Source: Amanita rubescens (Eukaryota > Basidiomycota > Agaricomycetes > Agaricales > Amanitaceae). From it: a stretch of DNA of 64,000 nt. The notes under the pieces were generated by a model. That model worked only from the letters and a program-made list of their open reading frames with translations, ran no database searches and was not told where the DNA came from. The DNA is taken from assembly GCA_015039365.1 (NCBI GenBank), contig WION01000120.1:1-64000 (forward strand), given 5' to 3'. The translations under genes and the position numbers were made by a program. Positions 18,201 to 63,900 of this stretch are shown piece after piece (position 1 is the stretch's first letter; each line of letters opens with the position of its first letter).

Positions 18201-20783
18201 ACTTATTTGACATATATATTCAGGTGCAACACAGATGTAACAAGCATGTGGTCAGGTACTGCATTAAAGGCAGTTATTGTCTACATTTCTGACTATATTA
18301 CTAAAAGCAGCTTAAAAACACATGTAGTGTTTGAAGCAATAAAAAGCATATTTGATAGAAATCAAGAAATCATTGGGAGTTCAATTTCTGAAAAGGATAA
18401 AGCTCGACAATTGCTGACAAAAATGGTAAACTTGCTGTCAACCAAATCAGAAATGGGTGGACCAATGGTTTGCATGTACCTCCTTGGGAATCCAGATCAC
18501 TACACCTCACATAAATTTGTCTCGTTCTACTGGAAATCATTTGTTAATGAGGTGCATAGTGTGTGGGACTCTGATGTGGCATCTACCCTAAATAGTAAAG
18601 TTGCAATTCTAAAAGTAAAAAAAAGAATAATTGGATTTTCACCTGTATATGACTACATTTACAGGCCAAATGAATTAGAAGACATGTGTTTGTATGACTG
18701 GGTTAGAAGATGTGACCGAAAGCGTATTTCATCCAGAGACTTAAATAAGAAGACAAGTAAAGTCAATGGTGCATTTAGTGATGATGAATGTGAAGATTGT
18801 CCTTCTGAGTGTGAATTGATTGATGAATATGATAGGGATGAAAATAGTGAAGGTGAAGATGAAGGTAAGTCTAAGAAACTGCAGAATAATATGTACTATT
18901 TCAAGAAGTCACATCCCTTGTGTGAAACACATGTTACTCATGTTTACCCAGACAAAGAAAATATAGTTGTAAATTTTATAGGAGGCACATTACCTAGGTG
19001 TGACCAAGGCAACAGAGAATACTATTGTATGACAATGCTGACTTTATTCAAACCATGGAGAACAGGGAATTCCTTAAAAAACATTGAGATTTCTTGGGAT
19101 GAAACATTTATAAATCACAACTTTACACAAAGACAGTATCAATTGATGAGGAACTTTAATATTAAATATGAGTGCCTTGATGCTCGAGATGACTATCGTG
19201 CTCAAATGAAGGCAGGGAAGGGAGCAGCATTGTTCATGTTTAATGAAAACATAGAGACTAATGATGAAGAAATATCTCCAGAAAGTTATGTTGATGGGAT
19301 TTACTTACATGATGGCATTGAAACCAATCAGAACATAATAGGCAACAAGGAATTAAAGCTACAGAGAGAAATGGCAGATATTAGGGCTGTGATGCGACAA
19401 ACTGGCTGGACAAATGAAATTTCTCCTCAGATTGATTCCAAAACAATAAATCCAATCAAGTCTGCAAACTTGAAAGGATCTGATTGGAAGGCGATTGTAC
19501 AAATAGAAAAGCAAAAAGTTATTGCAGATAGAATCAAACATCAATCTGATTCTCCAGAAGAAGGTCTCTCAAAGTGTCATGGTAAACCAAATGTTGTCCA
19601 AGTCATTGACAAATCATATTTGGAAAAAAAACATTACAAAACCATTCATGAATATTCTATCAACTCATTATGTACAGAGTTTAAATTAAATCAAGAGCAG
19701 GAACGTGCATTCAAAATAATTGCACATCATGTTGTAATGGTGAACTCAGGTCAACTGAAGATGTATATTGGAGGAATGGGAGGAACAGGTAAATCTCAAG
19801 TAATTAAAGCAGTTACATCCTTCTTTTTTGCACAAAATAAAGCTCATCAGTTAATTGCTGTTGCTCCAACAGGTTCAGCTGCTGCACTGTTGTCTGGATC
19901 AACATATCACACGGTTTTAGGAATAAATGACCTAAGTGAAAATGCATCTGAAAAGATGTTATCTCAAGTCCGAACACGATTACAAGGTGTTGATTATGTA
20001 TTCTTGGATGAGGTGTCAATGCTTTCATGCCATGATTTATACAGGATCAGCACACAGCTTGCAAGGGTTAATAATCGATTAGATACACCCTTTGGAGGTA
20101 TAAACATAATATTTGCTGGTGACTTTGCACAACTGCCTCCACCAATAGGTGGAGAAAATGTGTCCCTATATAGCCGTACAATAGGACAATTTGGAACATC
20201 CCTGAGATCACAAGAAGAAGCAATTGGAAGAGCTGTTTGGCACCAAGTCACAACTGTTGTGATTCTTAGGCAAAATATGAGACAACAACAAAATACAGAA
20301 GATGATGATAAGTTTCGCTCAGCATTGGAAAATATGAGACACAAAGATTGCACTACTGATGACATACAGTTTCTAAGATCAAGAATTACATCTCTTGTCC
20401 CAGGAAAGCCCTCAATATGTGATCCAAAGTTCAGAAATATATCAATAATCACTGCAAGGAACATACAAAAAGATGAAATCAACAGGTTGGGGTGTATAAA
20501 GTTTGCACAAGAAACTGGTCAACAACTAACTATGTTCTATTCAGAAGACTCACTAAGGGTCACAACTGATGAAAATACTACAAGAAGAAAAAGGAAAACT
20601 AGGAAATTGGCTGCAATCTCTAATGAATTGCAACAGATTATATGGAACCTTCCACATTCCTCTGCTGATAAGCATGTACCAGGTAAATTGTCACTCTGTA
20701 TAGGACTCCCTGTCATCATTAAATGCAATGCTGCAACTGAACTATGCATCACAAATGGCCAAGAGGCTATTGTTGTTGGTTGG

Positions 20784-21446
20784 TGTAAGGACGGTGATCC
20801 TAATTGGGACGGAGCCCGGGAACTAAGCCGCGGACGGGGAAGGACGGAGTATAACGGAGTCCGGGACGTAGTGGGGAAAGGCTAGGCTTCAGCGTGCAAG
20901 CTGCGCCGTGCTAACGTACGTCTTGCCTAAACTTCTGGAGAATGCTCTGGAGTCCGGGATGGAGTCCGGGACCGGAGTCCGAAGGGCGAGCAGTCTGGAT
21001 GAGGTTGAGACGATGAAAGACAGGGAGTCAATACGAGTTGGGGCACAATCCAAGTCGATATTCGGACTACTGTATGAATACAAGTGAGGCCTTATATACG
21101 TAGTCCAACAAGGGGAGTTATGGCCGTGTTCTGATGAGAACAGGAAACTATGGAGATATGGAACAGGAAGTGGAGTAGAGCATATGGTACGAAGGGATAA
21201 TGATACCAGTGATACCCGAGATGAAACAAGAGGTGAAACAAGTATGGAAATACGTAGAAAGGAACTTAGCGAATATGCACGGAGTTGTGACGGAGTTGTG
21301 ACGGAGTCCGTCACGGAGTTTTCGGAGTTTTGGCATAGGCTTGATATGAGATGCGACATGGGTGGAAAGTGGTCATGGGTATAGTCAGGAGTCCATCGGG
21401 GTCCGAGGTCACGGAGCTTGGGTGGAGTCCGGAACGGGATATGACA
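20784..21446 (-). repeat. 3' LTR (left copy) of the gag-only retrotransposon
   Basis: 663 bp, starting tgtaaggacgg and ending gatatgaca on the plus strand, with many ggagtccg motifs. It is the 3' LTR because the element reads on the minus strand. Confidence 0.93.
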
Positions 21447-21465
21447 GTATTCCCCCTTTAAGGCC
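21447..21465 (-). other. Polypurine tract
   Basis: On the minus strand the sequence directly before the 3' LTR contains aaagggggaa, the expected plus-strand DNA priming site of an LTR retrotransposon. Confidence 0.75.
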
Positions 21466-22385
21466 GAGCCCTCGAGGCCATTGTCGATGAGAGAATGAGT
21501 ACAAGGTTCAAAAGTCCAGAGTGTCGCAACAAACATTGCCAAAGAGAGAATAAGAGAGGATAAGGGAGGATAAGAGAGGACAAGGGAGTCGGATGTCATA
21601 ACAGTGAAGTCCGGAGTTTTTCGGGGTTTTTCGGAGTTTTTTCGGAGTTGTCCTGTCAAAGGGAGGTGTCGTATAAGGAGGTGTATGAAGTCTGGAAATT
21701 TCGGAGTTTTTTCGGAGTTTTTCGGGGTTTTTCGGAGTCCAGAGGACCATTGGAGATGGAGGCTGGCATTTGGGAGAAGTTGGGGAAGAAGTCGGATGAA
21801 GAAGGAGAAAAAATGGGGTCTGAAGGAGTGTGGGGTATAGTAGCTGAATGGGTCCGGGGTTTTTTCGGGGCTGTCAAGTAAGTCCGAAAATATTCAGTTA
21901 CGGTAGTCAGATTAACGTCAGAGGCGTCAGGCAGCGCTGAGGTCAAGGGAATAGTAGGTAGTCGGAGCCAGAGATTAGGCTTTGACAAGGGGGGATATCC
22001 TAGGGGTGTTGGCACCGTAATATGACAGAGGTCCGGAATATGGTGATGCTCCATCCGGTCAATCAACGGATTGTGTTGGTGGGGTCATCGGCGTCCGAGA
22101 ACGAGTGGCAGTTCAGGTCCAACGGAAAGAAGAACAATTCACCTGGGGTGAGACAACCAGCAAGTTGGTGTCAGATCCATCCACAAGGTGGAGGCAGATA
22201 GGTGATATTGGCTGTATAGGGGTGAGAGGCGAAGAGATGGGAATGGGGTTGTAACGGAGTCCGAGATAAAAGGCCAAGATAACAAGCAAGTCCGGGTCGT
22301 CGAAAATGGCCACATTGAGGTAACCACTAGCACTAGTGACTGGAGTCGACGCAACTCCTAGTTAGTGCAATCCAGAGGACGCCAG

Positions 22386-23561
22386 TTATTCGTCTGAGTC
22401 AGATGACTCCAATGGGGTCATATACTCTGATTCGGAGTCCGAAGTTTTGGAATTTGGGCTGGGGGGTGTGGGGTCTGAAGTTTCGGAGTTTGGACTGGAG
22501 GGTGTGGAGTCCGGAATTTCGGGGTTTGGGCTGGACATTGCAAAGTCCGGAATTTCGGAGTTGGGACTGGAGGGTGTGGAGTCCGAAATTTCGGGGTTTG
22601 GGATTGGGGAGTTGGGTGATGAATGTGAGACTGAGGAATGAGATTCGGAGCTGTGAGTGGAGTGATTGTCGGGGGTAGTGGCAGAATGGTCAGTGTCATT
22701 GGCAAGTTCATTCTTGGTCAACCAATAAGCCTGATCAATTTGTTGGGCCTTGAGACGCATCTTGATGAGTGTCTTCGGCTTGCCACCACGGAGTAATTCA
22801 ATCCGGATACGAGTCGGGAGTCCACGGAAAAAGTGATCACGGAGTGCCGGTTCGTTCCATTCGGTACGAGAAGCGAGTTTGTTGAAGTCGACAATGTATG
22901 TAGTGACATGGTGATGATCCTTCATGGTGAGGTTGCTGAGTGCAGTTTCGGCGTCCCCACGGAAATCGTAAGGTCCAAAATGGTCCGTGAGCTCTTTGAC
23001 AAAAGCGTTAAAATCATAGAGCCAGTCAGGAATGTCATCAATATCACCCATAATGACGGGTTCAAACCAATCTAAAGCCGCGCCTTTGAGGTAAGAGATC
23101 GCATAGCGGACCATCCTTTCATCTTTCCTGAACAAGTCTGGACGGTCCGAGAACACAAGACTGCATGAAACTAGAAATTCTCGGAGTTTGCTGGGGTCCG
23201 TGCCATCAAATGGCTCGGGGTCCGGAATTTCGGCAGATGAAGGGTGCTGGAGTTTTCGGAGTCCACGATTAAGATTCTGAATGGCGTTGGCTAGTAGGAG
23301 GTTGGAATTCGGAGGGTTGGTTGGTGGAGGAGGATGGTTGTCTTCTTGGTCGGAGTCCGAGATGTCTGTGTGCACGGAGTTGGGCGATTTCTCACCTTCA
23401 GAGCTGGAGTTTCCGTGTCCAGAAGGAGACAACCTGGGCTTGCCTCTGCGGCGAAAAAGCACTGAGATCGAAGGGGCAGAGACATTGGAGATGGCATAAC
23501 GGCCAATGAGGGAGGGGCCTGTCTTTGACTGAGTGTTGGGCATGAATGGACGCACGCGCAC
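22386..23561 (-). CDS. Retrotransposon gag protein
   Basis: 391 codons, intact. The N-terminus is followed by an acidic/proline linker (SDSDQEDNHPPPPTNPPN) and a Ty3/Gypsy-type gag core at about residues 115-290, with EPFDGTDPSKLREFL, AALDWFEPVI and LTDHFGPYDF. This core packages element RNA into virus-like particles in the cytoplasm. No CCHC zinc knuckle follows. Instead the C-terminus is a Ser/Pro-rich repeat of the type NPEISDSTPSSPNSE, repeated about five times and acidic at the end. It is the only gene of the element. Confidence 0.88.
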   Translation of the reverse strand: MRVRPFMPNTQSKTGPSLIGRYAISNVSAPSISVLFRRRGKPRLSPSGHGNSSSEGEKSPNSVHTDISDSDQEDNHPPPPTNPPNSNLLLANAIQNLNRGLRKLQHPSSAEIPDPEPFDGTDPSKLREFLVSCSLVFSDRPDLFRKDERMVRYAISYLKGAALDWFEPVIMGDIDDIPDWLYDFNAFVKELTDHFGPYDFRGDAETALSNLTMKDHHHVTTYIVDFNKLASRTEWNEPALRDHFFRGLPTRIRIELLRGGKPKTLIKMRLKAQQIDQAYWLTKNELANDTDHSATTPDNHSTHSSESHSSVSHSSPNSPIPNPEISDSTPSSPNSEIPDFAMSSPNPEIPDSTPSSPNSETSDPTPPSPNSKTSDSESEYMTPLESSDSDE

Positions 23562-23575
23562 AAGTCCGAATATAC

Positions 23576-24238
23576 TGTAAGGACGGTGATCCTAATTGGG
23601 ACGGAGCCCGGGAACTAAGCCGCGGACGGGGAAGGACGGAGTATAACGGAGTCCGGGACGTAGTGGGGAAAGGCTAGGCTTCAGCGTGCAAGCTGCGCCG
23701 TGCTAACGTACGTCTTGCCTAAACTTCTGGAGAATGCTCTGGAGTCCGGGATGGAGTCCGGGACCGGAGTCCGAAGGGCGAGCAGTCTGGATGAGGTTGA
23801 GACGATGAAAGACAGGGAGTCAATACGAGTTGGGGCACAATCCAAGTCGATATTCGGACTACTGTATGAATACAAGTGAGGCCTTATATACGTAGTCCAA
23901 CAAGGGGAGTTATGGCCGTGTTCTGATGAGAACAGGAAACTATGGAGATATGGAACAGGAAGTGGAGTAGAGCATATGGTACGAAGGGATAATGATACCA
24001 GTGATACCCGAGATGAAACAAGAGGTGAAACAAGTATGGAAATACGTAGAAAGGAACTTAGCGAATATGCACGGAGTTGTGACGGAGTTGTGACGGAGTC
24101 CGTCACGGAGTTTTCGGAGTTTTGGCATAGGCTTGATATGAGATGCGACATGGGTGGAAAGTGGTCATGGGTATAGTCAGGAGTCCATCGGGGTCCGAGG
24201 TCACGGAGCTTGGGTGGAGTCCGGAACGGGATATGACA
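23576..24238 (-). repeat. 5' LTR (right copy) of the gag-only retrotransposon
   Basis: 663 bp, matching 20784-21446 wherever compared. It presumably holds the promoter driving gag leftwards. Confidence 0.93.
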
Positions 24239-26057
24239 GTTGGGATTCAACAATAGGGACCAAAGGGCAGCTTATATTGGAGACTCTATTTGTAAAGCTC
24301 TTGAACCCTCCAAAAGACATCACATTAAATACTTTACCTCTAAATGTAGTTCCATTGACTCGTACTACAAATGTCATAATGTGCAAATTGCCTGATGATA
24401 GCAAACTCAGCTTGTCCAGATCTCAAGTAGAAGTTCTTCCAAACTTTGCAATGACTGACTTTGCATCACAAGGGAAAACTCGTCCATATAATGTTGTTGA
24501 TTTGACATATTGTAGATCACATCAGTCTTATTATACTGCACTTTCAAGGAGTGCAACTGCAGAAGGGACAATTATCCTTCAAAGCTTTGATGCAAAAAAG
24601 ATAACAGGTAGAGCATCTCGAGCTTTGAGACAAGAGTTCAGAGACTTGGAGTTGCTAGATGAAATAACTAAACTTGAACATGAGAGCAAGCTGCCAAATA
24701 ATGTAAGTGGATATAGAAGGAATACTTTAATACAAAGTTACAGAAAGTATAAAGGGGAGTCTTATGTGCCTTCAGCAGTACATCGTGCAATTAGGTGGAG
24801 CAAATCTGACCCAATGCTTGATCCAATAGAAGATGATGTAGAATGGAAGATACTGAAGAAAACAAATAAAAGTGTTGCAAATCTTGGTTCAACAAATGTC
24901 ATTAACTCTTTTATTCCTGCAAAAGGAAGTGTCCCCTTACAATCTAAAAAAAGAAACCTGAAAGAGTGTGACATCCTCCTACAATCAAAAAAATTAAAAC
25001 TAATTGACTGTAACAAGATGTTTGAAAAAAAGATTAACAAAAAAACAAACAAATCAGCCCCTGACATAGAGACAAGTAATGTGATATCTGTTTCATCATT
25101 AACACCTTCAGGATTTTCTTGGACTGAAAACAGCTGTGCATATGATTCTGCTTTGAGCATATTACATGCTATTTGGAAGAGTGACTGTATGAAATGGGAT
25201 GATACATTTAGAAACATGAATGAGAGAATAATGGGTCCTCTTTTAAACAACTTCACAGCATCCAATATTGGACTGATATCATTGAATGCAAGCAGAGATA
25301 ATTTACGTTTCAGATTAGAACAGTTATCTCCAATAAACTTTGCATGGGGACGCTACACTAGTATCACTAGGCTTTTGGAAATCCTACTTGAGACTCCAAT
25401 AGATACTCTTCAAAGATCTATACGTTGCTACAATGAACACTTAGTGGAAGATGTTCAGCTTCGCAACAATAGTTGTCTAATAGTTGCTGGTGCACAGGGG
25501 GAATTATCTACTGAATCTTGGATGACAAATTTCAGAGAAGACATAGAAGGGATATGCAATTTATGTCAAATAAACATATATAGAAAATTCAGATTTGCTT
25601 ATGCACTTCCAATTGTAGCTTTGGATGTATCAGGTCATGAATTCCAGATTAATAGTAGATTCAATGTGACAATAGATCAGGAACATCATACATATATGTT
25701 GAGAGGAATCATTTACTTTTCAAATTACCATTTCACCTCTCGAATTGTATATGAAAATGGAATGACATGGTTCCATGATGGTATTACTACGGGTGATGAG
25801 CCAATATATGATGGTATGATAAACACAATACAAAATTTATACCACTGCAGAGGAAAGAATGCATCCATTGCCATCTATACAAAAAACTAATCTTATAGAG
25901 GATAGTAGTGTTCAAGAATGAAATGTTGACTTTAAATGTAAGTTACTCTTAATAGTTAATCATCATGTCAGATTTGATATAATTAGATAAAAATAGCCTA
26001 AATAGGCCTCGGACTTGCCGTGCACTGCAGCGGCCCACATAACCAAGTATTGCTTTA

Positions 26058-44715: not shown

Positions 44716-45796
44716 TTAGACGCACTTACAACGCAAGCCGCCGCGGCGTTGGTTCTGGTTCCGTTGCTGCTGTTGGCGCTCCTGTTGTTGGCGCTCTTGT
44801 TGTTGGCGCTCTTGTTCTTGTTGCTCTTGTTGTTGTTGCTCCTGTCGCTGGTTCTGGTTCTGGTTCTGATTCTGGTTCTGGTTACGGTTCTGGTTCTGGT
44901 TGTTCTGGTTCTGGTTCTGGTTCTGGTTACGGTTCTGGTTCTGGTTGTTCTGGTTCTGGTTCTGGTTGTTCTGGTTCTGATTCTGATTGTTCTGGTTCTG
45001 GTTCTGGTTACGGTTCTGGTTCTGGTTGTTCTGGTTCTGATTCTGGTTGTTCTGGTTCTGATTCTGATTGTTCTGGTTCTGGTTCTGGTTACGGTTCTGG
45101 TTCTGGTTGTTCTGGTTCTGATTCTGGTTGTTCTGGTTCTGGTTCTGGTTCTGGTTACGGTTCTGGTTCTGGTTGTTCTGATTCTGATTCTGGTTGTTCT
45201 GGTTCTGATTCTGGCGAGGCTGTTGGCGAGCGCGTTGTTGGAACTCTTGGAAACGTTGTTGGTTGATATTGACCGCAAATACCATTCCTGCAAGCGAATG
45301 AGTACATCGCAACTAAACACAAAGCCGACGACGTACCGTTTTGACAATCGTTATCCGCACCACTGTAGATGTAGATGGGCTGATTGTCGTTCACCTGAAT
45401 CTGGAACGTTGGATATTGTTGTTGGTTCTGGTTAACAGAAATCCTAATCGCGGACAAGTCGCGTTAATAGGTGGACACAACTCGCGTCACAAGACGTACT
45501 GTCCAGAGTTGAACCCATTGCGCGTGCAAGGTTGATCGAAGCTCGACTGCGTCACGGTATGAGTCCCAGGGAAGCTGAACAGACAGACATTAGCGAGGAA
45601 AACAAGCGGCTTAATCCACTTACAAGATGAACTGGATGATTTCCCCATTGCTCGCGTTCACAATCTGTGGCTGGAAAACTTGTTGATTGTTGGGGCCGAC
45701 TTGGACGTTGATTGTCGGAGCCTGCCATTGGGTGGCTAACCCAAGGGGCAACGCAAGAATAAGCGCAAAGACAGCGGTGAAGGTACGAGAAAGCAT
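44716..45796 (-). CDS. Secreted cupredoxin-like protein with Q/N-repeat tail
   Basis: Four exons (45624-45796, 45500-45574, 45337-45443, 44716-45287) join in frame to 308 residues. The start MLSRTFTAVFALILALPLGLA is a clear signal peptide. A plastocyanin-type fold follows, with NASNGEIIQFIF, GTHTVTQSSFDQPC, INQ-rich strand QYPTFQIQVND and, across the last splice, CQNGMVFAVN, as in fungal extracellular cupredoxin/serine-rich proteins. Where those have a Ser-rich, GPI-anchored tail, this one has about 150 residues of NQNQNN/NQNRNQ repeats, then QEQQQ/ERQQQ repeats and a basic end RRGGLRCKCV. No GPI signal is evident. Copper binding is uncertain. Confidence 0.82.
44750..45220 (-). repeat. Hexanucleotide-based coding microsatellite
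   Basis: On the coding strand, units of cagaac with interspersed aac and cgt encode the NQ-rich tail; nearer the 3' end caacag/gag units encode Q/E/R. Such an array is length-unstable, so alleles probably differ in tail size. Confidence 0.85.
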
Positions 45797-47495: not shown

Positions 47496-49969
47496 ATGAG
47501 TGATGCTTTCGGTGAGAGTGTCAGTCCCATCGCTGCGATCCAAGCAATCTTGCACGACTACCCCTTCTCTGCAAGCATCCTTCGAGAGTTGTTGCAAAAC
47601 TCGACTGATGCAGGGGCTAAAAAGCAGGTTTGTGCTGCGCTGCCACTCATGAGGCATGTATTGAACAAAACCGCAGATATTTGTTCTTGACATGGGTAAA
47701 GACGGGAAAGACTCTGCGCTGATGGCGTACAACGATGCTCAGTTCCATGAAGAGGATTGGAGAGCAATCCAAACGATCCACCAATCGTCCAAGCTAGCAG
47801 ATACGTCGTGAGTTTGGCATCTATTTCCGCAGCAAACCACTGTTGACCTCTCATTTAGCAAAATAGGCAAGTATGGCGTAGGATTTAGGGCCTGCTATCA
47901 CGTACGATGGTCCATTTTTGCTCTTCGCCACTGACCCCAAAGTTTGCATAGGTCACCGATACACCCCAAATCCTTTCTGGGTCATCGTTTGCCACGCTTA
48001 ATCCCATCCACTCTGGCGGCGAGATAATCGACTACGATAAATTTAAAGAAAGGGACCATCGCCGAAATTTTGATTTTTTCTCTGACATCCTTCAGCCTTC
48101 TTCCATTCCCGGAACGGTCATCAGATTACCACTTCGGTCGTCACCGAGTGGACTAAGCGAGCGCGTTGTACTCGCTCAGGAGCTTGATCAAATGATCAAG
48201 GATTACATCACTGAAGAGTTGAACATCACTCTTCTATTTCTCGGTACCCTCAGGACAATCGAAATATGGAAAGTTCATGACGCAAGCAAGACACGTCTAG
48301 CTACGTGGACCAAATCCGAGAGCGTAGTTGAACATTGGAGCGAAGAGTCTTCATTTTTCGTTTCCGACGTAATCCTTTCCAACGGCAACGATTGCTTTTC
48401 TTGGCGGATCATTCAGACTCGGAATGAAGAAGACGAGGCCAGGTCTCGCCTCGCGACTCTGGTTAGTGGCAAGACTATCGATCACATCTTTACAAAGCAC
48501 AAGTTGAACCCTGATGTGCGCATTGCTTATCCTTTGTTCGCCGAAACATACACCTCCGGGCGCCTCTTTACATTCTTGCCGTTGCCGTCCAGGACAGATT
48601 TTCCTGTCCATATCCACTCGCTATTCGCGTTGACATCGTCAAGACAAAGCCTGCGCAATCGAAACGAAACCGGGATTGTACCTGGTTCAGACAATGAGTG
48701 CGCATATATTTTCTTTTCGTCGTGATTTGGGACTGAAAGCTCCTATGTAGCGTCTTGATTAAATGGAACTCTTTATTGTTTGATCACTATATTCCGCAAG
48801 CCTGGAGCCATCTCTTGAAAACCTTGGCTGAAGATGCTCTACCCGGAGACATTTTCAGTGCTTGGCCTCCCCATTGCTCGTCGATAACATCCGGTGATGG
48901 CTTATACTGGGAAAACATTCTCCAGGCGACGTTACATTCTTCGGTTCAGTCCGGTTTAGCGATCTGGCCGAAAGTATCGGAGACGGATACGATAACTCAT
49001 GTTGGTCTGAACTCTTCCCTAGTCATAGCCAAAGACCAGGTCAATTGGGATGTCCTCATCGCTCTGGCCCGCGTTGGTCTAACGCTGGTACAATTGCCAC
49101 AAACCCATACGGAGCTCCTCGACGATTCTATCGCCAAGTTGACTCCGCGTGTTGCGCGAGACCAAATCTTGCTTCGTAGCCTCCTCTCCGGGTTCGATGG
49201 TTTGTCCCGGGTTCAGCGGAGAATTCTATGCGAGTACTTCCTCTCGGGCAAGGACTTTAGCAGTATATATGACCTTCCCCTTTTCCCTGTCCTGGACGAA
49301 TCCTATATCTCCCTCAACAACAGGACAGCGACAACTCGGCACTACATTGCCATGACTAACGATGAAGTTAACGTATTTGGAGCGTCAGCGGGCGATGCCA
49401 TACCTCTCGATCAGCTGCAACCCGCCGTGGCAGCGTTGGTACTAGAAATGGGCACGACTAAGGCCAATATTGATCTACTTTCCCCGACGTCTGTCGTTGC
49501 CTACTTGTCAAGTGAAGCTGAACCTCGCAGCGAAGAGGATTTGTCGAAATTCTGGTCTTGGCTGAGTGAATGGTGTCACCGAGAGCAAGCGATGATGCTG
49601 CTCAAAGCCAGCTCTTCTCTTCGTCTTATACCTACGTCAAAAGGACCGCAGCTTGTCTCGTCTCCCGTATTTCGGGCGCTAGGTGATCGCTTGTTTGAGA
49701 AGCTTGGACTTGCTTTCATCAGTTCTCTTCTTCCAAGCGGAGTGATCTACTTCCTGGGTAAGCACGGAGTCATCAGAGACGCTCATGATGTGCAAGGCCT
49801 CTTGACGGCTATTTGTCAAGCGGTGTTGCAGGTGCATCTGTCTCTCTCGAGTCTCAATCTACTGAATACATCTTCGATAGTCATGATGGCACTGCAGGTT
49901 TTTGTCTCAACACTCTTCAATCACACCTCCAGACCATTCTCCGCTAACGATAAAGGACAACTTTGCTGA
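47496..49969 (+). pseudogene. Sacsin-like GHKL ATPase gene, copy 1, 3'-truncated
   Basis: Exons 47496-47627, 47677-47807, 47859-47901, 47952-48697 and 48751 onward join in frame. The protein begins with an HSP90/sacsin-type ATP-binding fold: N-box FSASILRELLQNSTDAGAKK, IFVLDMGKDG, then KIGKYGVGFRACYH with the glycine-rich lid, and TVIRLPLRSSPSG. The following ~550 residues match the gene at 57958. Homology runs to about 49830, then continues weakly and out of frame until a stop at 49967. The remainder, including the second ATPase module, is missing; AT-rich sequence starts soon after. An N-terminal protein of about 750 residues could still be made. Confidence 0.8.
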
Positions 49970-50785: not shown

Positions 50786-53700
50786 TCAAATGTAGATCAT
50801 AACCTGTTTGTACAGAAATTCAGCCAATTCTTCATGACCACATTGCACAGACTCAGAAGTAATATGAGTCTTCAGTTTCTGCACATAGTCATGTTTCCTG
50901 AATTGTTTTAAAGCCTCCATGATTGATTGCAAATATGGCCTCTTTATCCAAAATGACAGCTTGGCAATGATGTTAATTGCTTGGAAGTATTAGCATAAGT
51001 GCAGCATAGTGAATAAGATGGAATTAAATTACCAACTACCACTTGGCATGCTGTAGGCTTATTGTGGTAATGTTAATACTTTTAAAAGGGGAAAGGGAAA
51101 CTCATACAGTTGCTGAAAAATTCTCTGGTTGATCTCCAAACAGGGAGAAAAGTTCAGGCTGACTATTAGAAAGGAAACTTCCTAGCAAAATTGGACTTAC
51201 ACACTAGCATGCAAATTAATATCAAGATTCATATCTTCCACAATCTTATCACTCACCTGCAGAGTCAGGATGGTCATAAGAATTAATAGAATGTTCCAGG
51301 AGACAATATGCCCACAATCTATAGGTAATAATAACATCAGGCCAAATCACAAAAAAAATGGACAAGCTGTGCTCTCACTTGCTGTATTCATATATTTGAG
51401 AATTGAAAGATTGAGACTTGGAGAAAAATGCAATGTCACTCACAGCCTGATAGTTATAGGAGAAGATGTGGTGAGGTAGGCTTTAAGAAAAATAGTGACA
51501 CCCACTTGCTGTTGGTTACAAGAGAAAATGTAATGTGACTGGCTTTCAGAAGGATGTGCACTGCCACTCACTGCCTGTTGGTCATAGGTGGTGTGATAAG
51601 ACTGCTGTTCAAAATATCACTTACTTCCTGAGTTCATTTGGCAAGGTAAAAAGACTTCCTTGGAGAAAATGTGCAATATGCAATGTTACCCACTTCCTGT
51701 TGATGAGAGATGTGGTGAGAATCTTTCAGGAAATTCAAATGTTATTCACAATCTGTGAGTCATAGGAGAATATATGTATATATGTTGAGGCTACCTTTCA
51801 GAAATTGCAATGTGACTCACAAACTATTAGCCACAAGAATGTATGATGAGCTGCAATTTAGAAATGTGTTTTGTCACTCACTTGCTGTAGGAGAATATGT
51901 GATGAGGTGATTGGCTTTTAGAAAATTACCATGTCACCCACTTGCTGTTGGTTATAGGAGAAGGAGAAGATACAATAAGACTGGCTTTGAAAAAGAATGA
52001 TAACACTCACTCGCTGTTCATTGCATATGAAAAAGTAATGTGGCTTTTAAATTCAAGTATTGAAATATGTAATGTCAACTCACTTGCTGTTCATTACATG
52101 GTGGGATGAAACTGCTGGTCAGACTCTAATGTACAATGTACCTACTTGCTGTTGATCATGGAAGAAGCTGTGATGAGGCTCCCTTGAGAAAGACTGTGAC
52201 ATCACTCACTATCTGTTCATCATGTAATGAGAGTAACTTTCAGATAATGTACAATATTGCTCACTTGCTGCCAATTTTAAGAGAAAATGTGATGAGAGTG
52301 TCTCACATGAATGTAATGTTACTACTCACTCGCTGTTGATCAAAGATAAGAAAAGATATGATCAGATTGCATTGCAGAGGCTGTGGTATCACTCACTCTC
52401 TGTGGGTTATAGAATGCATTTGTGATTATACTGCATTCCAAAAATGTGTAATACTAATCACATACTCTCTTTGGCCACAGAGAATGTGATGACATTGCCT
52501 TTCAGAAATATGTACAAATTACTCACTCGCTGTTAGTCATACAAGCAGATGTCATAAGACTGCCTTTCAGAAGAATGTGTAGAATTACCCACTTCCTGTT
52601 AGGAAATATGATGACATTGAAACAGGGCCATATGTACAACATATGATCACTTACTCGCTGCCATTTGTCATACAAGGTAATGTGATTGGATTCATTGGAG
52701 TGCATTTTGGAGAAATTACAATGCCACTCACTCTCTGTTGGTCATAGATAACTGGCAGTATTGAACACTGAGTAATGTCACTCACTCCCTGTTGGTCATA
52801 AGGATGTAATGTCATTGTTTTAAAAACATTCAATTGCACTTACAAACTGTTCACAGAGCATTTGGGCATGACATGTTCAAGTGGGTGAATTACAAAACAA
52901 GGAGTCATGTCACTCACTCTCTGTTGCTCATAAGATGTGGTTAAATCCAGATGATGGTGAATCTGAGTATCACTCACATACTATTGACCATAAAGTTGTG
53001 ATGAGAATTGCAGAAAATGTGTGTCATTTACTTTCTGTTGACCATGATGAACAAGTTATGATGAAATCTCAAGCATACTTACTTTTTGCTAATTGGATGG
53101 GATAAAACTGCCTGGAAAAGTGAATAACAGCCTCCTACATTCTGCAAGTTGTTAGTTCTCTGAAAAAATACAGTACCTCATAACTCACATCCTGTAGGTG
53201 TAAATGAGATTTGTAGAATTGGTTGGTTGACAATATCTCTCACTCTCTGTTGATGAAGAAGTGAGACTGCCCAACAGGCAATAACATAATGTCACACACA
53301 TCCTTTTTTAGCAGTGAGACATGATGAACTACATGATGCTTAAATATATGTGTAGACTCACTGCCTGTTTGTCAAAGAATTATTATGTGATGAGACTTCT
53401 GGGCAGAAAAGGGTGCAATAAAGTTACTGACAAACTGCATGCAACAGAATGAGAGTGATAAGATATGTAGTCTGGCTCTTAAATCTCACAAACTTTGATC
53501 ACAGCAAGAGGTGATGAGACCTTATAATGGGGGAAGAGTCATTTACTCACTTCCTGTTAAGAAGATGTGATAAGCCTATTGCAAAAAAAAAAAAAAAGCA
53601 TGATCACTCACTCTCTAAATATAAGTACTATGTGATAAGTTTACCTGGCTGAAGACAGCAGTGCTACTTACTTCCTGTTGACCATGGGATAGAATGTCAT

Positions 53701-55914
53701 GCATCTGCCTGGCAGAAAAAATGCAGTGCTACTGACACCCTGATTGTCAAAGGTGAGATATGATAAGACTGCCTGTTAAAAATAGCCTTACATCCTGGTG
53801 ATTGTTAAGTAAGATCTAATGGACCATGCAATAGAACACATGCAGGCATCACTCACTGCCTGTTATTATGGTATGAAAGTGATGAGTAAAGTTCAAAAAC
53901 AGGAACTGCCACTCACTTCCTATATTAAATATCATTTAATGGTTTCTTTAGATAAAAGTACAATGCTACCAACTTTCTGTGTTCATAGTACAGATCAGAT
54001 GCAGGAATATTGACAGTGTTGCTCACCTTCTGTAAGCAGGTGTGGCAGGGTGTGACTCTATGGTTGAAAGAAAGGATGCTGCACCACTCACTGCCTGTTG
54101 ATTATAGGATGGAAAGTGACAAGACTGCATATAAGGTAACTCTTCACCCACTTTCTATTGGTTATGCCATAAAGCATGAAAATGCCTTCCACATGTTGGA
54201 GTAAGATATCACTAACATCCTGTTGATCATGTGACAAAACTGTTGAGCAGCAGACTAAAGCATCACTCACAAACTGTTGCCATGAGAAAGATGCCAAACC
54301 ATAACCAGTCCAATAGTGACTATGTACTTACCCACTGTTGCCCATATCATCAGACTTGATCACAGAAAAGTGTGGTAATATAACTCACTTGTATCTCATC
54401 CTGTTGTTTAGCAGGCATATATACATGGCTGATCAGACCACAATAAAGGAAATGTAGTTTCACTTGCATCCTGCTGCATATTGTTGCAAGCATTGATTAT
54501 TTCATATGCAATACCTACCTGTCTGGTCACCTGTCATTCAATTCAATTTTCTCTTCCTGATATGCCAGTGTTAGAGAAATACACACACCCAAAAGTGTGG
54601 AAATTTTGTGAGAACCATGACAACAACATCATCCCATGAACAATTGTCAGCCAAAACATGTCTGAAAACAGTCAAGTTTTTAAAGTAATACTTAGATCTG
54701 AATCATGTGATCCTCACTGAAGTGCAGATTTAACACAGAGATCAAGGTTATTCATCTGTGTTGAGACAAACAGTTGATGGATACTGTTATCATCTATTGC
54801 ATCAGCTGTCTTCTGGGCTAATTCAGGACAGTTCTTCTCTGGTAGATCCAGATCTATGAAATTACTGTACATATCTCTGCTTCCAAAAAAGAGTTTTCCA
54901 ATGCTCTTACCTTCTAATCTGACATATGCCTTGGGAGGATATTTAGCATGCAATACTTTAGGAAGGTAAACTGTCTGAAAAATGCTTTCAGCTTTCTCCC
55001 TGGCCATCTTCCACTTATCATCATTCTCAATGTCTGGCAAGTTTGCATATTCATTGATGATTTGACCATCAAATTTGGTAAAGATGGTCACCAAAGGAAC
55101 TGCAAAAAAGTCATTTAACAGTGAGTACAAGGTAAATTTTGCACATGTTTTAAATATTCAGAAAAGATAAAACCAATCATGATGTGCATGTATTTATAAA
55201 CATTCTGAAAGATGAATCTCTTACCTTTGCCTCTCCCTTTATCAAAGAACTTGAGTTCTGCAGGTTGTATGGGACGAGGATCATCCATGGGTATGCAGTA
55301 CCTGGAAGGGGCTTGCTGATCAGTCAGTTGTGTAAGATTGGAAATATGTACCAAATTGCATGCAACTGGTTTTTCAGTTCAGCTTCTGTGGATCTCTTTT
55401 CAATGAACTCCCAAGCAATCTCCAATTCCTCAATTGCACCAGCCTCAAAACCCTGCGAGTCATGGAAGATAAAATTACTTCCAGGGTAAGTAATCTGATG
55501 TTCAATATTATGCAGGCCTCTCTATCATCATTGCATATCAAAAACTAAACTCCTACATTATCATTTTACCTACCTCAATTGATGGTATTAAATGAATGCT
55601 TGAACATGGAAGCTGGTCACCTGCAAGAAACCAAACATTTAGAGAATGGACAAAGTTCAGCTTGTCTTACCATTCATGTCATATATGATGGGCTCTGTTT
55701 CCTTGCCTACACCACAAACCTTCTCAAGGATGGTTGTCTTGCCAGCATTAGCCCTCCCTATGACAAGAACACGAAAATGTGTACATCTGTATCTTTCCCT
55801 GAGCACTACTATTTTTGCTCCACTGTCATTATCTAATATGAACTGATGAGAATTTGACAAAGCCAGATAATTTTGCATACTCAGTGGAGGTGCATCAGCA
55901 GCATCTGCCATCAC
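50786..55914 (-). CDS. P-loop GTPase gene with a long run of single-codon exons
   Basis: Six ordinary exons (55671-55914, 55574-55620, 55352-55521, 55225-55301, 54718-55099, 54589-54661) join in frame into a G domain of a family common in mushrooms: P-loop VIGRANAGKTT, GLHNIEHQITY, switch-II-like FHDSQGFEAGA, WYCIPMDDPRP, TIFTKFDG (TKxD base recognition), FVSTQMNNLDLC and KFPHFW. After that W codon come exons of 12 nt (54519-54530), 3 nt (54468-54470) and 12 nt (54389-54400), then 3-nt exons whose low coordinates are 54332, 54271, 54217, 54152, 54092, 54027, 53974, 53917, 53857, 53792, 53737, 53672, 53612, 53551, 53490, 53432, 53362, 53300, 53244, 53189, 53139; a 6-nt exon 53083-53088; and 3-nt exons at 53032, 52978, 52918, 52844, 52786, 52732, 52655, 52593, 52527, 52466, 52397, 52330, 52265, 52210, 52146, 52084, 52011, 51942, 51882, 51821, 51750, 51694, 51625, 51572, 51506, 51444, 51379, 51316, 51201. 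Two ordinary exons follow: 51108-51158 (PELFSLFGDQPENFSAT) and 50786-50959 (LSFWIKRPYLQSIMEAL... FLYKQVMIYI, stop). Each microexon sits between an AG acceptor and a GTRAGT-like donor, all in phase 0, none a stop; 32 of 51 single codons encode D, E, K, R or Q. The G-domain exons are near certain. The microexons rest on splice signals and phase; one large intron from 54588 to 51159 would also keep the frame. Confidence 0.8.
51200..54530 (-). repeat. Array of about 55 similar short introns
   Basis: Seen on the minus strand, successive units of about 50-80 bp share gtgagtgacatt at the start, an often present ctgaaaggcagtctcatcac in the middle, and a ctatgaccaacag-type end. They are too diverged and too regularly punctuated by codon-sized gaps to be a simple satellite. 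A 15-16-base poly-A run (plus strand) lies at about 53583-53597 inside one unit. Confidence 0.85.
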
Positions 55915-57957: not shown

Positions 57958-60900
57958 ATGAGCTGTAATTTCGGTGAAAGCGTCAGTCCCGTCGCTGCGA
58001 TCCAAGCGATCCTACATGACTACCCCTTCTCTGCAAGCATCCTTCGAGAACTGTTGCAGAACTCGGATGATGCAAAGGCTACAAAGCAGGTTTGTGTTGC
58101 GTCACTCAGAAAGCATATGTTAACAAAGCCATAGATTTTTGTTCTCGACACGGGGAAAGACCCTGCGTTATTGGCGTACAATAATTCTCAGTTTCAAGAA
58201 CTAGATTGGGAAGCTATCCAAACCATCCATACGTCGGCCAAAAGAGCAGATACCTCGTGAATTTATCCATTTCCGCAATCAATCACTGCTGACATCTTCT
58301 TTAGTAAAATTGGAAAATACGGCGTAGGCTTTAGAGCTTGTTATCACGTACGTTGTTCCATCTTGAGCCTCATTATGGACACTGAAGCGCATATAGATCA
58401 CAGATGGACCTCAAGTTCTTTCTGGGTCGTCGTTTGCCATTCTTGATCCCCTCCATTCTGGCGGCATGAAAATTAACTACAATGAATTCAAAAAATCAGA
58501 CCATCGCAAATGTTTTGATTTTTTCTCCAACATGTCTACATCTTCTTCTTTTGGCGGCACGGTCATCAGATTACCACTTCGGTCGAGGCCGAGCGAACTA
58601 AGCCAACGCGTCGTACTCGCACAAGAGCTGGATAAGATGATCAGCGATTACATCAACGAAGAATTGGACATTTCTCTTCTATTCCTCGACAACCTCAGGA
58701 TCATTGAAATTTGGAAGGTCCATGATGCAAGCAAGACGTGCTTAGCTACATGGAGCAAATCCGAGAGGAGGGCTGAACGTCAAAGCAAAGAATCTTCACT
58801 TTCCATTTACGACTCAGTCCTATCTGATGGTCATGCGAACTTCTCTTGGCGGATTATTCAGACCCAGAATGCGGAAGAAGAGGCCAAGTCTCGTCTCGCA
58901 GCGCAGGTTGGCGGCGACGCTGTAGATCTCATACTCAAAAAACACAAATTACGTCCTGACGTGCGCCTTGCTTATCGATTGATCACCAACGAGCACATCT
59001 CTGGTCGCCTCTTTACCTTTTTGCCACTCCCATCTATCACGGATTTCCCTGTGCATATACATGCGCTATTCGCATTAACTTCTTCAAGACAGAGCTTGCG
59101 CAACCCGAACGAGACTGGAACTGTAGCTGGATCCGACAACGAGTACGCATATGTCCCCATTTTGCCGCGATCGGGTGCTGAAGGCCTTCATTTAGTGTAT
59201 TAATCAAATGGAACAGTCTGCTATTCGATTACTATATCCCTCAAGCTTGGGGTCGCCTTTTGAAAACGTTGGCCGAAGACACTGTATGCAAGGATATTTT
59301 CAGTTCTTGGCCTCCGTACTGCTCGTCGATAACGTCTGGTGATGGCCTATACTGGCAAAATATTCTCCAGGCAACGTTGAAGTGTGCCATCCAGTCTGGT
59401 TTAACGATATGGCCGAAAGTAACAGAGACGGATACGACCACATATGTCAACTTGAAGTCATCCCTTGTCGTAGCTAGAGACAGAGTTCATTCGGATGTGC
59501 TTATCGCTTTGGCTCGGGTTGGTCTAACGTTGGTCCAAATGCCCGAAACCCATATGAAGTTCCTCGACGACTCTATAAGCAAGTTAACTCCACATGTCGC
59601 CCGGGACCAAATCGAGCGTCGTAGCTTGGGATTCAACAGTTTGTCTCAGAACCAAAGGAGGGTTTTATGCGAGTACTTTCTCTCTGAGAAGGACTTTAGC
59701 AGTATATATGGCCTTCCCCTCTTCCCCACCCTGGATGGATCGTATATATCCCTTGACAATAGGGACGCGACAAGTCGACGCTACATCGCCTTAACCACCG
59801 ATGAAGTTGATGTGTTCAGAGCGTCAGCGGGCGATGCTATATCTCTAGATGAATTGCCACGCGAAGTGGCAGTGTTGGTACGGGAAAAAGGCACGACTCA
59901 GGCCAATATCGATCTGCTATCCCCGCAGTCTGCCGTTGCTTACTTGTCAAGTGAACCACCACCGCTCAGCGATCAGCGATTGACGAAGTTCTGGACGTGG
60001 TTGGAGAAATGGCAACAACGTGATCAAACAATGGCGCTCCTGAAATCCAACACTGTGCTTCATCTCGTCCCGACGTCGAAAGGCCCACAGCTTGTCTCTT
60101 CTCCTGCGTTTCCGGCTCCAGGTGTTTCACTGTTTGAGAAGCTAGGGCTTGCCTTTGTCAGCTCTGTACTTCCGAGTGCAGTAGTTCAATTTTTGAATAA
60201 CCACGCGGTCGTCAAAGACACTGATGATATGAACCATTTTTTAGCGGCTATCAATTTGGCGACATTGCAGACTCTCGGCGATGACGAAGCAAAGTCGGTG
60301 TTCGACCATATCTCCACTTGTTACAGGTCACTTTCTAGTGATAACTTGACCAAGTTGAAGAAGCTACCCGTTTTCCCTGTGCTGGTTCCATGCGCAAACT
60401 TGGTCTCTCCTAGCTTAGTGCCAAGCATGAATGTGCAATCTCTGGTCAAATGCAATACCTCTGTAAAGTGGCGTACCATCGTCGGCCTTAGCGTCAAGGG
60501 AATCTCGCCTATGTCGCTTATTCCTTTGATGGACAACGTAAACTTCCTCGACAAGTCCTCCTTTAGCAATCCGTCATGCTCTCTATTGCAGGCACTACAG
60601 CTACCGCTCCTCGGCGACGAAGATATATTGCTGCTTGCCCTTGGCCAATTCTCTTCACAGCCAAAGTCTCTTCGAGCCCTATTCGTCTCCTACGTCAGAC
60701 AAAATCACAGATGGACCAATAGCGTTACGTCAGTCCTCCGGAAGACACAGTTTATTCACTCGTCAGACGGTACCTTGCGATCGCCAATCGAAGTTATTGA
60801 TCCCAACTCGAGGCTTAAAAGTCTTTTTCTCCCCGCTTCGAGCGGCTCGCTTATCCCGACCATGGAGGATGATTACGATCGCGAGATAATCGATGATCTT

Positions 60901-63900
60901 CGGGACCTGGAGATGATGAAGGCATCTTTGTCGTTAGATATAGTGCAAGAACGAATTTGGTACATCTCGGCAAATCACACGTCGCCTGAGGCACTAGTCG
61001 TTGCTCGATCCTTGCTTTCGCTCATGAATGATCCAAGTTTCGTTTGTGCCAGTTTTCCTATCGACCGCTCCTTGCGCTGGTTACCGACGGAGGCTGGTCT
61101 TGTCAGCTTGAAAGAATGCATTGATTGGGGACGTCGTGATGCTGACCTGTTCGACGAAGTTCTCGCCACTCTTGACAAATCTTTTACAATCACACCCTCT
61201 TTCCGGGCTCTGCTAGGCTGGGATAAATCTCTGCCTTTGGATGTCCTTACGAAACAGTTGGACCGTGTTCTTGGAAAACCAAATCCTGATACGCAATATC
61301 GCAAAATCAACGAGATTATAAGAGAACTTGCGACTCGCGAGCTCGGAGATGCAGACGTTAAAGCTGTACACGCAGCTACCGCTGGACGGCCTTGGGTACC
61401 CACCAAATCTGGCACGCTCGCGCTGCCCCTCCGTGCCGTGTTCACAAGTGTAGTTGATTCGAGTTGCTTTCACGAAATTTGCTTCTCGAAGGCGCAAAAG
61501 CAAATCTACATGTTCCTTGTGAAGATGGGATGCAACGAACGGTATGTTATTATTCTGACTAGGAACGGAGTCATTGACAATCGAGTCAGGCCTTCGGCGT
61601 CAGCGATTATCAGCGAACTTAATGCATTACGCAAAAATGCGGGAACGGATAGAAGCATTGTTCAGCAAGCGGTGCAATTATTGGAAATGTTACCTGATTC
61701 AATAACAGACAAGGAACGTGGCTCTCTGTTAGTTCCAACAGACACGGGGGATCTCGTGTCGTTACGCACTGGCGTATGTTATTACAAAGGACCAGTCACT
61801 GGCGTAGACGATGGAAAGATCATCGCTCATCACCTTATCACTGAAAAACTTGCAAAGAAGATTGGGATCCAATACCTGGGCGTCGACGAAGCACTGAACG
61901 ACATCGACTTGGGTGGGAACCCTATCACCCTCATCCGTAACACTTTAAGGCAATATGATCCGAAACAGTTCTTTACTGAATTCATCGCGAATGCATCCGA
62001 CGCAGGTGCCAAGCGGTTCAGCGTCCTCGTAGACGATCATGAAGGTCCAACGGAGCATCTCCTCTCAGAGGAACTAGCAGTCTTTCAGAAGGCATCTCTG
62101 GTCATATACAACGATGGGATCTTTTCTAAAAAAGATTTCAGAGGAATATTGCAGACTGGAATTGGCGGAAAGAGGGGCAGGACTGGCGTAATTGGCCACT
62201 TTGGATTAGGCGCACTTTCGATGTTTCACTTTACAGAGGTAAGATGGGGTTTGGCTGATATTCCGAAGACTAACACTTCTTCTCTAGCTGGCTATGATTG
62301 TTTCGGGCGATCAAGTCCTTTTCATGAGTCCGTCAAAGCAAAACTTGTCGTTCTGCGGGAAACACTCTGTTCTGCTTCCTTTGCAAAGCGTGAAAAAGTA
62401 ATTGCTGTCCGGGAGATATTTTCTACGTTTTTAATTTCTATTTCAGGTTATATCCAGATCATCTTAAGCCGTTGGTTGGATTGTTCGGATTTGATCTTTC
62501 TTCCACTAAATCATACCAAGGGGTTAGCTTCGTTTCTTCAACGTCGTTCACTGTGCTGACCATTTCCTAGACTCTATTTAGACTGCCGCTCAGGAACGAA
62601 TCGCATTCAAGTCAAGATCCTGTTTCTACGACGCCTTGGAGTGTAATACTGGCCCAAGAGATGATTCTCACCGAGTTCGATAAAGTGGCGTACAAATCGC
62701 TTCTGTTCACTCGGCTGGGATGTATAGAGGTGCAAAAACGGCAGAATGGCAATATTGAACCTCTTCGCGCCATCAAAAGTGTCCGTGTACCAAACGATCC
62801 TACCTCCGGTGATTCATTCAAATCTGAAACGGTGACTTTTGAATCGCCAAAACTGCAAGTACCCAAATGGCTAGTCGTCACGATAGACGTCAATGTCCCT
62901 GAAAAATTCAAGGCAGGGCTTGCAAAGAAATATGACATGCATCACCTTCTCCCGATATGCATTGCCGCAACGCTGGACAGTGACCAAGCTCAGAAATTGG
63001 AATATAATCTGTTCTGCACTTTACCGTTGCCCGTCACCACGCCTTTACTGGCCCACATCTCTGCTCCGCTGATCCTAGAACAGGATAGGCGAAATGTACG
63101 CATCAACAGTGACCGAACCGAGATAGAATCCGAATATAACCAATGGTTATTGTCGTCAGAACTCCCTCGCTCATACCTTTGCTTGCTCGAGATGTTATTG
63201 CGGATTCAAGGCACCAATATTGCGTGGTGGCCTGGGGCACACAACATTGATGTCAATTATCCGAGCCGAATTTTTATGAATGCTTTTTGGAGTTCCGAAA
63301 TCCTTAAAGAGAGTTCGAGACGCGTTTTCGCAAGCAAATACAATCCTACATCCCTCCTGAGCCCAGATGAGGTCGTATTATACGCGAATAAGGCAAATGA
63401 ATACACGGCATGCAGCTGCACGCTCCCTAAAGTCCTATCTGCTATTCAACCCCCGAATATTGCGGAGCTCCCTGTTCAATTGTTCGATTACGCTAAAAAG
63501 GCGTTACGTATCGTCGATGGTCCATTTCTCAAAACGCTTTTGGAGCATGCCGATCCGCCCAGCCTACGTTTGTCCGTGGACGAGATGAATAGTTTATTGT
63601 GGTACCTATCGAAGAAGATACAGTTGGATGGCCTACCACTGATCTTGCTTGAGGATGGATCCTGTGCGAAGATCCGCTCGCAATTCACTCAAGCATATTA
63701 TATAGTAGGGGAAGAACAAAATGCTGCCTACCACCTCTTCCGACCCAATCGCCTCGTACACAGGAAGTTCACCGCATCTAAAGACCTTCTGAAAGTTGAA
63801 GTGAATGTATCGCGTCTAGATAACGCTGGAGTAGCAGAACTGGTCGAAGATCATATTGGGCCTGATCATGAACGGTCTGGGGATGAAAAGTACCAAGCTT

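Follow-up and report, generated by a model that had tools for sequence, protein, structure and literature searches.

Can a segment of a protein be encoded by dozens of consecutive exons that each carry a single codon? This question is raised by a GTPase gene on the minus strand of a 64,000-nt stretch of Amanita rubescens DNA (assembly GCA_015039365.1, contig WION01000120.1, positions 1 to 64,000; hereafter the window). An original prediction, made from the sequence alone, had proposed about 51 consecutive single-codon exons downstream of the G domain of this gene. In this study, we found about 50 such exons. With a probability of roughly 0.92, we read the gene as a fungal GTPase whose middle segment lies in about 50 consecutive exons, nearly all of one codon, and predict that the array is spliced together. 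This interpretation is supported by the scarcity of stop codons, by exon conservation, by recurring paralogue peptides, and by intron-free proteins of the Joint Genome Institute (JGI).

A chain of codon-sized exons in a GTPase gene

The array runs on the minus strand from exon 54661-54589, which ends in KFPHFW, to the exon starting at 51158 (PELFSLFGD…), and comprises about 50 acceptor-codon-donor units. The gene was divided into the features below, in which "capped chain" is a splice-site chain parse with introns capped at 90 nt and P-numbers denote database proteins; P0001 is a near-exact JGI match.

55671-55911, minus strand: GTPase exon 1 (MADAADAPP…, P-loop GRANAGKTT); open frame with donor GTAAGA; present in P0001 with about 20 residues fewer
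54718-55620, minus strand: the other G-domain exons (55620-55574, 55521-55352, 55301-55225, 55099-54911, 54853-54718); open frames, borders by eye and from P0001 (which is without the 54910-54854 intron)
54589-54661, minus strand: exon HVLADNCSWDDVVVMVLTKFPHFW, the final ordinary exon ahead of the array; open frame, junction seen in P0001
54519-54530, minus strand: first array exon, VTRQ, 12 nt; capped chain, and KFPHFW/VTRQ/D in P0001
54468-54470, minus strand: single-codon exon GAT (D); capped chain and P0001
53432-54400, minus strand: conserved array part, DEIQ (12 nt, 54400-54389) and then the single codons W F D K A K K E A D G E R E F F; capped chain, paralogues (EWFEQGKKETDRE…) and RNA-like proteins (EIKWFAEAKKQADGEREYF and similar)
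51316-53364, minus strand: variable array part, single codons A D R D N (QK) K Y R F G R R E R R R R Q I Q Q R Q Q F I E E A Q A Q I; chain parses, QK by eye
53083-53088, minus strand: probable 6-nt exon CAAAAA (QK); read by eye
51108-51158, minus strand: first ordinary exon past the array, PELFSLFGDQPENFSAT; open frame, with homologous counterparts LPELFSVFGEHSTFFSAT (P0036) and SEIFSIFGDRERLF (past the array of L026)
51040-51057, minus strand: probable exon PTACQV; by eye, matching PTACQV in P0036 and P0068
50786-50979, minus strand: C-terminal exon …INIIAKLSFWIKRPYLQSIMEALKQF…FLYKQVMIYI and stop, 5' border provisional; open frame resembling the C-termini of P0030, P0032 and P0036

Read in order, the array lines spell the window peptide, which begins VTRQ-D-DEIQ-W-F-D-K and ends Q-A-Q-I; its last one or two codons 5' of PELFSLFGD are provisional. 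The capped chain, ending at 51318, contained 52 exons (two 12 nt long, the other 50 of 3 nt) separated by introns of 44-74 nt. When a chain was made to start at donor 54588 and to finish at the PELFSLFGD exon, under a length prior favoring 3 nt, it held 50 internal exons; one measured 12 nt and the other 49 measured 3 nt. Even under a flat exon-length prior (1-40 nt), 37 of 45 exons were exactly 3 nt long, the remaining eight being 1, 1, 12, 25, 29, 36, 40 and 40 nt. The splice-site chain of the window scored 207, compared with a best score of 0.3 among 50 dinucleotide shuffles and -2.5 on the opposite strand. In four arrays the chain scores ranged from 163 to 580, and none of the 50 shuffles made of each array exceeded 2.1. 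The pattern AG-NNN-GTRAGT had 28 matches on the minus strand of the window, 28 of 28 within the array, and none on the plus strand. A chance origin of the array was rejected, since shuffles give no comparable chain. The three exceptional gaps that had been counted earlier (6, 12 and 12 nt) could be placed at the probable CAAAAA exon, DEIQ and VTRQ. At the 6-nt unit, 53088-53083, the capped chain chose an overlapping TAA and the uncapped chain passed the unit by; the CAAAAA reading is favored by its stronger donor (GTAAGT).

Genome-wide extent and the GTPase family

The assembly comprises 75.7 Mb in 786 contigs, of which the window is contig 25 (C25), and most of the best NCBI relatives of the window gene were A. 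rubescens proteins. The core AACAG-NNN-GTGAGTGA matched 2614 times in the assembly, compared with 7 matches of a reversed control. For the first G-domain exon, at least 150 matches were scored among 263 candidates, near-identical copies counted. We read 26 loci (25 fetched regions and the window), which were picked for core matches or as near-copies rather than at random; eight 3-kb loci (L001-L008) were unused. An FPHxW exon was recognizable in 23 of the 26 and absent from L014, L017 and L018, which were excluded from the parsed set. With the prior favoring 3 nt, 1144 of the 1170 exons in 23 chains were 3 nt long. With a flat prior of 0-60 nt, 20 arrays gave 665 of 723 exons of exactly 3 nt and 700 whose length is a multiple of 3; this parse includes near-identical copies, and its splice-site matrices were trained on 3-nt-gap matches. 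Older arrays were lost when parsed with a long acceptor matrix. When the near-identical copies L024, L025, L029, L030, L032 and L033 were dropped, 17 non-redundant chains held 891 single-codon exons, 202 of them with the exact core. From this share and the 2614 core matches, a rough extrapolation gives about 11,500 single-codon exons in the assembly, near-identical copies included.

The free-ended chain of L026 stopped exactly at the C-terminal exon SEIFSIFGD, and that of its near-identical copy L033 did likewise. At L032 (C134:36500-41000), a near-copy of the L026 gene, the chain stops after 23 single-codon exons at unrelated sequence, possibly a mobile element.

Among 46 family members, 40 matched the Pfam family MMR_HSR1 (E 0.01). 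The window protein itself gave a weak match to an MMR_HSR1/Arf-type GTPase (20.0 bits, just below the cut-off of 21.9). No ankyrin family of Pfam was found at E 0.01, and NACHT appeared weakly in one of the 46 members. The single-codon exons of paralogues spelled opening peptides such as EWFEQGKKETDRE… (L011), EWFEQGKEADREI… (L019), EWFEQGKKTDREI… (L022) and DWFESADNAAAKERQYY (L009), and the window opening peptide, WFDKAKKEADGEREFF, is of the same WF..K..REI type. The strikingly polar composition noted in the original prediction holds for the window copy; as a general trait it does not, since other arrays encode Leu/Gln/Gly-rich or coiled-coil-like strings. At C13:581779-584784, the listed NRA units form a run of CAA and CGA codons only (Gln/Arg), mostly with 65-bp spacing.

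Stop codons and exon conservation

The units share a sequence of about 53-65 nt, and some introns are identical to the base. These features would also fit a satellite-like repeat within one long intron, in which the transcript skips from 54589 to 51158 or ends inside the array and the repeat unit gives rise incidentally to the codon-sized gaps. We therefore consider here whether the codons behave as protein-coding sequence. The 2614 cores included one TAA/TGA and no TAG, with one match also in the reversed control of the TRA pattern. TRA made up 1 of 1303 NRA core units, yet T opens 147 of 495 other parsed codons. In the 891 non-redundant parsed codons, two stops were found, compared with 57.5 expected from position frequencies.

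Conservation between gene copies was then compared for exons and introns. Between the window and its copy L030 (C316), introns differed at 134 of 2768 sites (4.8%) and array exons at 1 of 159 (0.6%; p 0.004); of the gap events, 26 fell in introns and a single one in an exon. When five copy pairs were pooled (window/L030, L021/L024, L016/L025, and the shared starts of L026/L032 and L019/L031), 2 of 447 exon sites differed against 192 of 9521 intron sites (p 0.007); each of the four pairs besides window/L030 is alone too small to show an exon-intron difference. The near-identical pair window/L029, left out of the pooled test, showed 0 of 159 differences in exons and 12 of 2816 in introns. Both the near absence of stops and the conservation of exons while introns drift speak against a satellite-like repeat. 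A general genomic repeat without a coding role was rejected by the stops, the exon conservation and the RNA-like proteins described below.

Intron-free proteins and public gene models

JGI protein entries on contigs of about 1.1-1.9 kb continue beyond FPHxW without introns; P0030, for example, has 478 residues on a contig of 1486 nt. Because these contigs are intron-free, whereas the genomic copies span several kb with dozens of introns, we infer that they are spliced RNA. Six of the 13 JGI proteins with the motif reach the C-terminal part (P0030, P0032, P0036, P0062, P0122 and P0092). The L009 array, parsed from splice sites and length priors with no protein used, gave 48 single-codon exons spelling DWFESADNAAAKERQYYDDGVHAGYGYYGGEKISEKERDKRKDFVERE, and much of this string was present already in a flat-prior parse that predates any protein comparison. 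The corresponding segment of P0030 reads DWFESADDAAGKEREYYDDGIHSGGYGYYGGKKISEKERDHRRDFVERE, and the two are identical in 40 of 49 columns (z 31 against shuffled peptides). L023 and P0006 were identical in 28 of 55 columns (z 19), and L022 and P0040 in 24 of 52 (z 11.6). The window peptide gave z values of 7.5 with P0122, 6.3 with P0030 and 5.1 with P0006.

Over 314 compared residues, P0001 has 2 differences from L030, and it has 5 from the window. Its ordinary introns and the first two array introns are spliced (FPHFW/VTRQ/D), and its third array intron, with a GC donor, is retained, a pattern expected of RNA. The same intron at 54467 in the window has a GC-AG border (GAT/GCAAGT, minus strand). 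P0006 ends in an apparent retained array intron. Intron retention occurs in the array. Transcripts ending at the in-frame TGA had been named as an outcome that would count against the array; P0001 splices over this TGA (54716-54714), which lies inside the intron preceding exon 54661-54589.

The motif occurs in 29 NCBI models, drawn from four Amanita species, and in 28 of them FPHxW is not followed by the C-terminal part. In the sole exception, the A. rubescens gene model P0068, FPHYW runs straight into the C-terminal part and the array peptide is missing; this model may be a skipped isoform or a prediction artefact. This join is what a satellite-like repeat in one long intron would produce, and the retained introns that end P0001 and apparently P0006 would suit it as well. 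The sister arrays, however, spell intron-free JGI proteins; this comparison largely refutes such a repeat, and we consider it very improbable.

A second alternative accepts the peptide as real and assigns the JGI proteins to other Amanita species, where they would derive from ordinary exons or retrocopies, the A. rubescens arrays being no longer fully spliced. P0030 and P0006 are just 91% and 81% identical to their nearest exons in this genome, the exon tested for P0032/P0036 has no close copy there, and P0001, the one near-exact match, is unspliced past the second array intron. Against these points, P0001 has array introns 1 and 2 spliced at the window locus or its allele, and stop avoidance and exon conservation are found within the A. 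rubescens arrays themselves. In addition, the C-terminal part is missing from 28 of the 29 models from four Amanita species, as if arrays blocked them too. We regard this explanation as having only a slight chance of being correct.

Several observations weigh against a fully spliced array. Seven of the 13 JGI motif proteins do not run through to the C-terminal part. The RNA status of the JGI contigs is deduced from their missing introns rather than from a label. P0062, one of eight JGI proteins compared with the arrays, matched none of them, and the test exon of P0032/P0036 had no match in the genome at E 1e-25. No complete transcript of the window gene was found, with P0001 showing only the first two array introns spliced. 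Full splicing of the array may be inefficient, because P0001 ends in a retained array intron and P0006 apparently does too. In the chain parses, the free-ended chain with a flat prior collapsed in the window, as in several old arrays; in the capped run, L009 had 48 exons of 3 nt but also four of irregular length, namely 33, 18, 4 and 40 nt; and of 23 free-ended chains, a recognizable C-terminal exon was reached only in L026 and L033. Part of the stop avoidance could stem from a splicing constraint, because TAA and TGA make a competing GTRAGT donor and NAG a competing acceptor. The exon conservation and the recurring paralogue peptides are free of this weakness.

Hypervariable codons between near-identical introns

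The relation between codons and introns was examined in L019 and its near-copy L031. The two have the first 22 or so codons in common, with one extra in L019, and their introns there are nearly identical; beyond this shared start, the codon strings diverge, with 73 exons in L019 and 40 in L031. For units of the same array with introns 97% or more identical (191 pairs), codon positions 1-3 agreed in only 39, 49 and 58%. For L019, the agreement was 0.40/0.45/0.55, close to the 0.33/0.44/0.51 of independent draws. Among pairs with identical introns, the codon was common to 55 of 200, and when both flanking introns were identical, to 17 of 28, a figure in which some pairs are one unit in two gene copies. 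The third base of single-codon exons was A or T in 1054 of 1144 and C in two, and codons creating YAG acceptors or GT donors were uncommon.

The near-identical introns of young arrays, with nearly unrelated codons between them, would fit an origin by intron invasion, with an introner-like element inserted repeatedly into an ordinary exon at codon borders. Introners are near-identical introns that are spread across unrelated genes and carry insertion marks; of these traits, near-identity of introns was seen in the arrays. The third-base bias is hardly expected of an ordinary exon, though, and the arrays that were read belong to a single gene family, at 23 of 26 loci with three left unplaced. 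To our knowledge, there is no insertion mechanism with strict 3-nt spacing. Such an origin therefore appears unlikely.

The codons are thus either long-standing or quick to change, and the introns appear recent. Strong diversifying selection, codon-directed mutation or intron-confined homogenization could each explain this decoupling; the exon conservation between copies favors intron-confined homogenization, at least in the window gene. We tentatively propose, as a possibility short of an even chance, that each array is a string of one-codon cassettes, each a recyclable intron with a single replaceable codon, in which codons are diversified and introns kept constant, giving a genome-wide repertoire of variable GTPase arms. 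The clearest sign of such cassettes is one identical 53-nt intron found in 18 units, which carry seven codons among them.

Predicted structure of the product

A structure model of P0030 had a mean predicted local distance difference test (pLDDT) score of 80.6, with good confidence throughout the G domain and over most of the helical C-terminus. Most of the single-codon stretch (residues 316-336 and 338-359) fell below pLDDT 50, as expected for a variable arm. No sequence relative was found in PDB. In a fold search, immunity-related GTPases (IRG) ranked first, but with a root-mean-square deviation of about 7 Å, a poor resemblance. The array segment is predicted to form a hypervariable arm between the GTPase and the helical domain.

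Neighboring features of the window

Two related long genes flank the GTPase gene, and a tandem repeat and mobile element frames lie elsewhere in the window.

58397-62559, plus strand: long gene with sacsin-type domains (Pfam SACS)
47952-49969, plus strand: shorter gene, similar by eye to the 58397-62559 copy; second part without a Pfam match
44848-45214: 6-bp/81-bp tandem repeat with several open frames, which encode runs of Ser-Gly, Arg-Thr or Asn-Gln
22386-23591, minus strand: Ty3-type gag frame, following the Helitron frame on the opposite strand
15231-20885, plus strand: Helitron-type helicase frame (DUF6570, Helitron_like_N, PIF1)

Frames shared at 20889-21893 and 23681-24271 suggest a nested retroelement.

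Discussion

If the array is spliced as we propose, the spliceosome would remove its introns singly and the codons would join in order, yielding an arm of 50-60 residues between the G domain and the helical C-terminal domain. Since 3 nt are too few for an exon to be recognized by itself, the introns would presumably serve as the recognized units (intron definition). The gain or loss of a unit would add or remove one codon with no frameshift, so that arrays could safely grow, shrink and diversify. As the first 15 or so codons (WF…K…REI/REF) stay constant and the remainder is hypervariable, we speculate that the arm sets the binding partner of each GTPase paralogue, as variable domains do in fungal self/nonself receptors.

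Runs of tiny in-phase exons in rapidly diversifying families are known from schistosome micro-exon genes and aphid bicycle genes. Their exons have several to many codons, whereas those of the Amanita arrays are nearly all of one codon. The window gene belongs to an expanded fungal G-domain GTPase family, which has a P-loop domain and many mushroom paralogues.

Isolated 3-bp and 1-nt exons are reported to be spliced in Drosophila homothorax (PMC7392893) and Arabidopsis (PMC4674806). They are likewise too small to define themselves, but they stand alone, compared with about 50 in an Amanita array. The closest precedent contradicts the earlier view that the array is outside anything known: the NACHT-ankyrin (nank) genes of Tuber melanosporum, as described in passages of four papers after Iotti et al. 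2012 (PMC9815663, PMC4986451, PMC3689799, PMC10197012), have dozens of 3-bp or codon-sized mini-exons. On these accounts, the two systems share dozens of codon-sized exons, an expanded fungal family, and a variable segment that follows a nucleotide-binding domain on its C-terminal side. As in Tuber nank, single genes with Amanita arrays hold dozens of 3-bp exons in succession. Mini-exons in mRNA, another trait of Tuber nank, were found for relatives on the contigs taken as RNA, while the near-identical copy of the window gene shows the first array exons only. The Tuber genes belong to an ascomycete and encode NACHT-ANK NOD-like receptors (NLRs), whereas the Amanita arrays belong to a basidiomycete and to a GTPase without an ankyrin match. 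In Tuber, alternative splicing is the reported driver; in Amanita, the hypervariability of codons lies in the DNA itself, and the RNA-like proteins show long strings with some intron retention (P0001; apparently P0006).

The C-terminal repeats of fungal NLRs are reported to consist of highly similar units with few hypervariable positions (PMC9815663), and the Amanita arrays likewise combine near-identical units with hypervariable residues. The constant part is translated in the NLR repeats; in Amanita, it is an intron predicted to be spliced out, leaving the variable residue. Our literature search found no paper pairing Amanita with the term microexon and, in the text that it returned, no precedent for codon-sized exon arrays besides Tuber. 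The kind of array is therefore already known from Tuber, and what is new is the phylum, the protein family and the apparently very large scale. Also new are the intron-free proteins that spell the strings and the free variation of codons whose flanking introns match to the last base. The Amanita arrays are apparently independent of the Tuber occurrence.

If true, these results would place codon-by-codon exon strings in a second fungal phylum and an unrelated protein family, with roughly ten thousand such exons per genome. Databases probably lack a variable segment for many Amanita proteins, because 28 of the 29 public gene models examined stop where the arrays begin. The arrays make it testable how small an exon can be and whether a spliceosome can pass fifty such exons in order. 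They also suggest a route by which a protein segment can be lengthened and varied residue by residue, without frameshifts.

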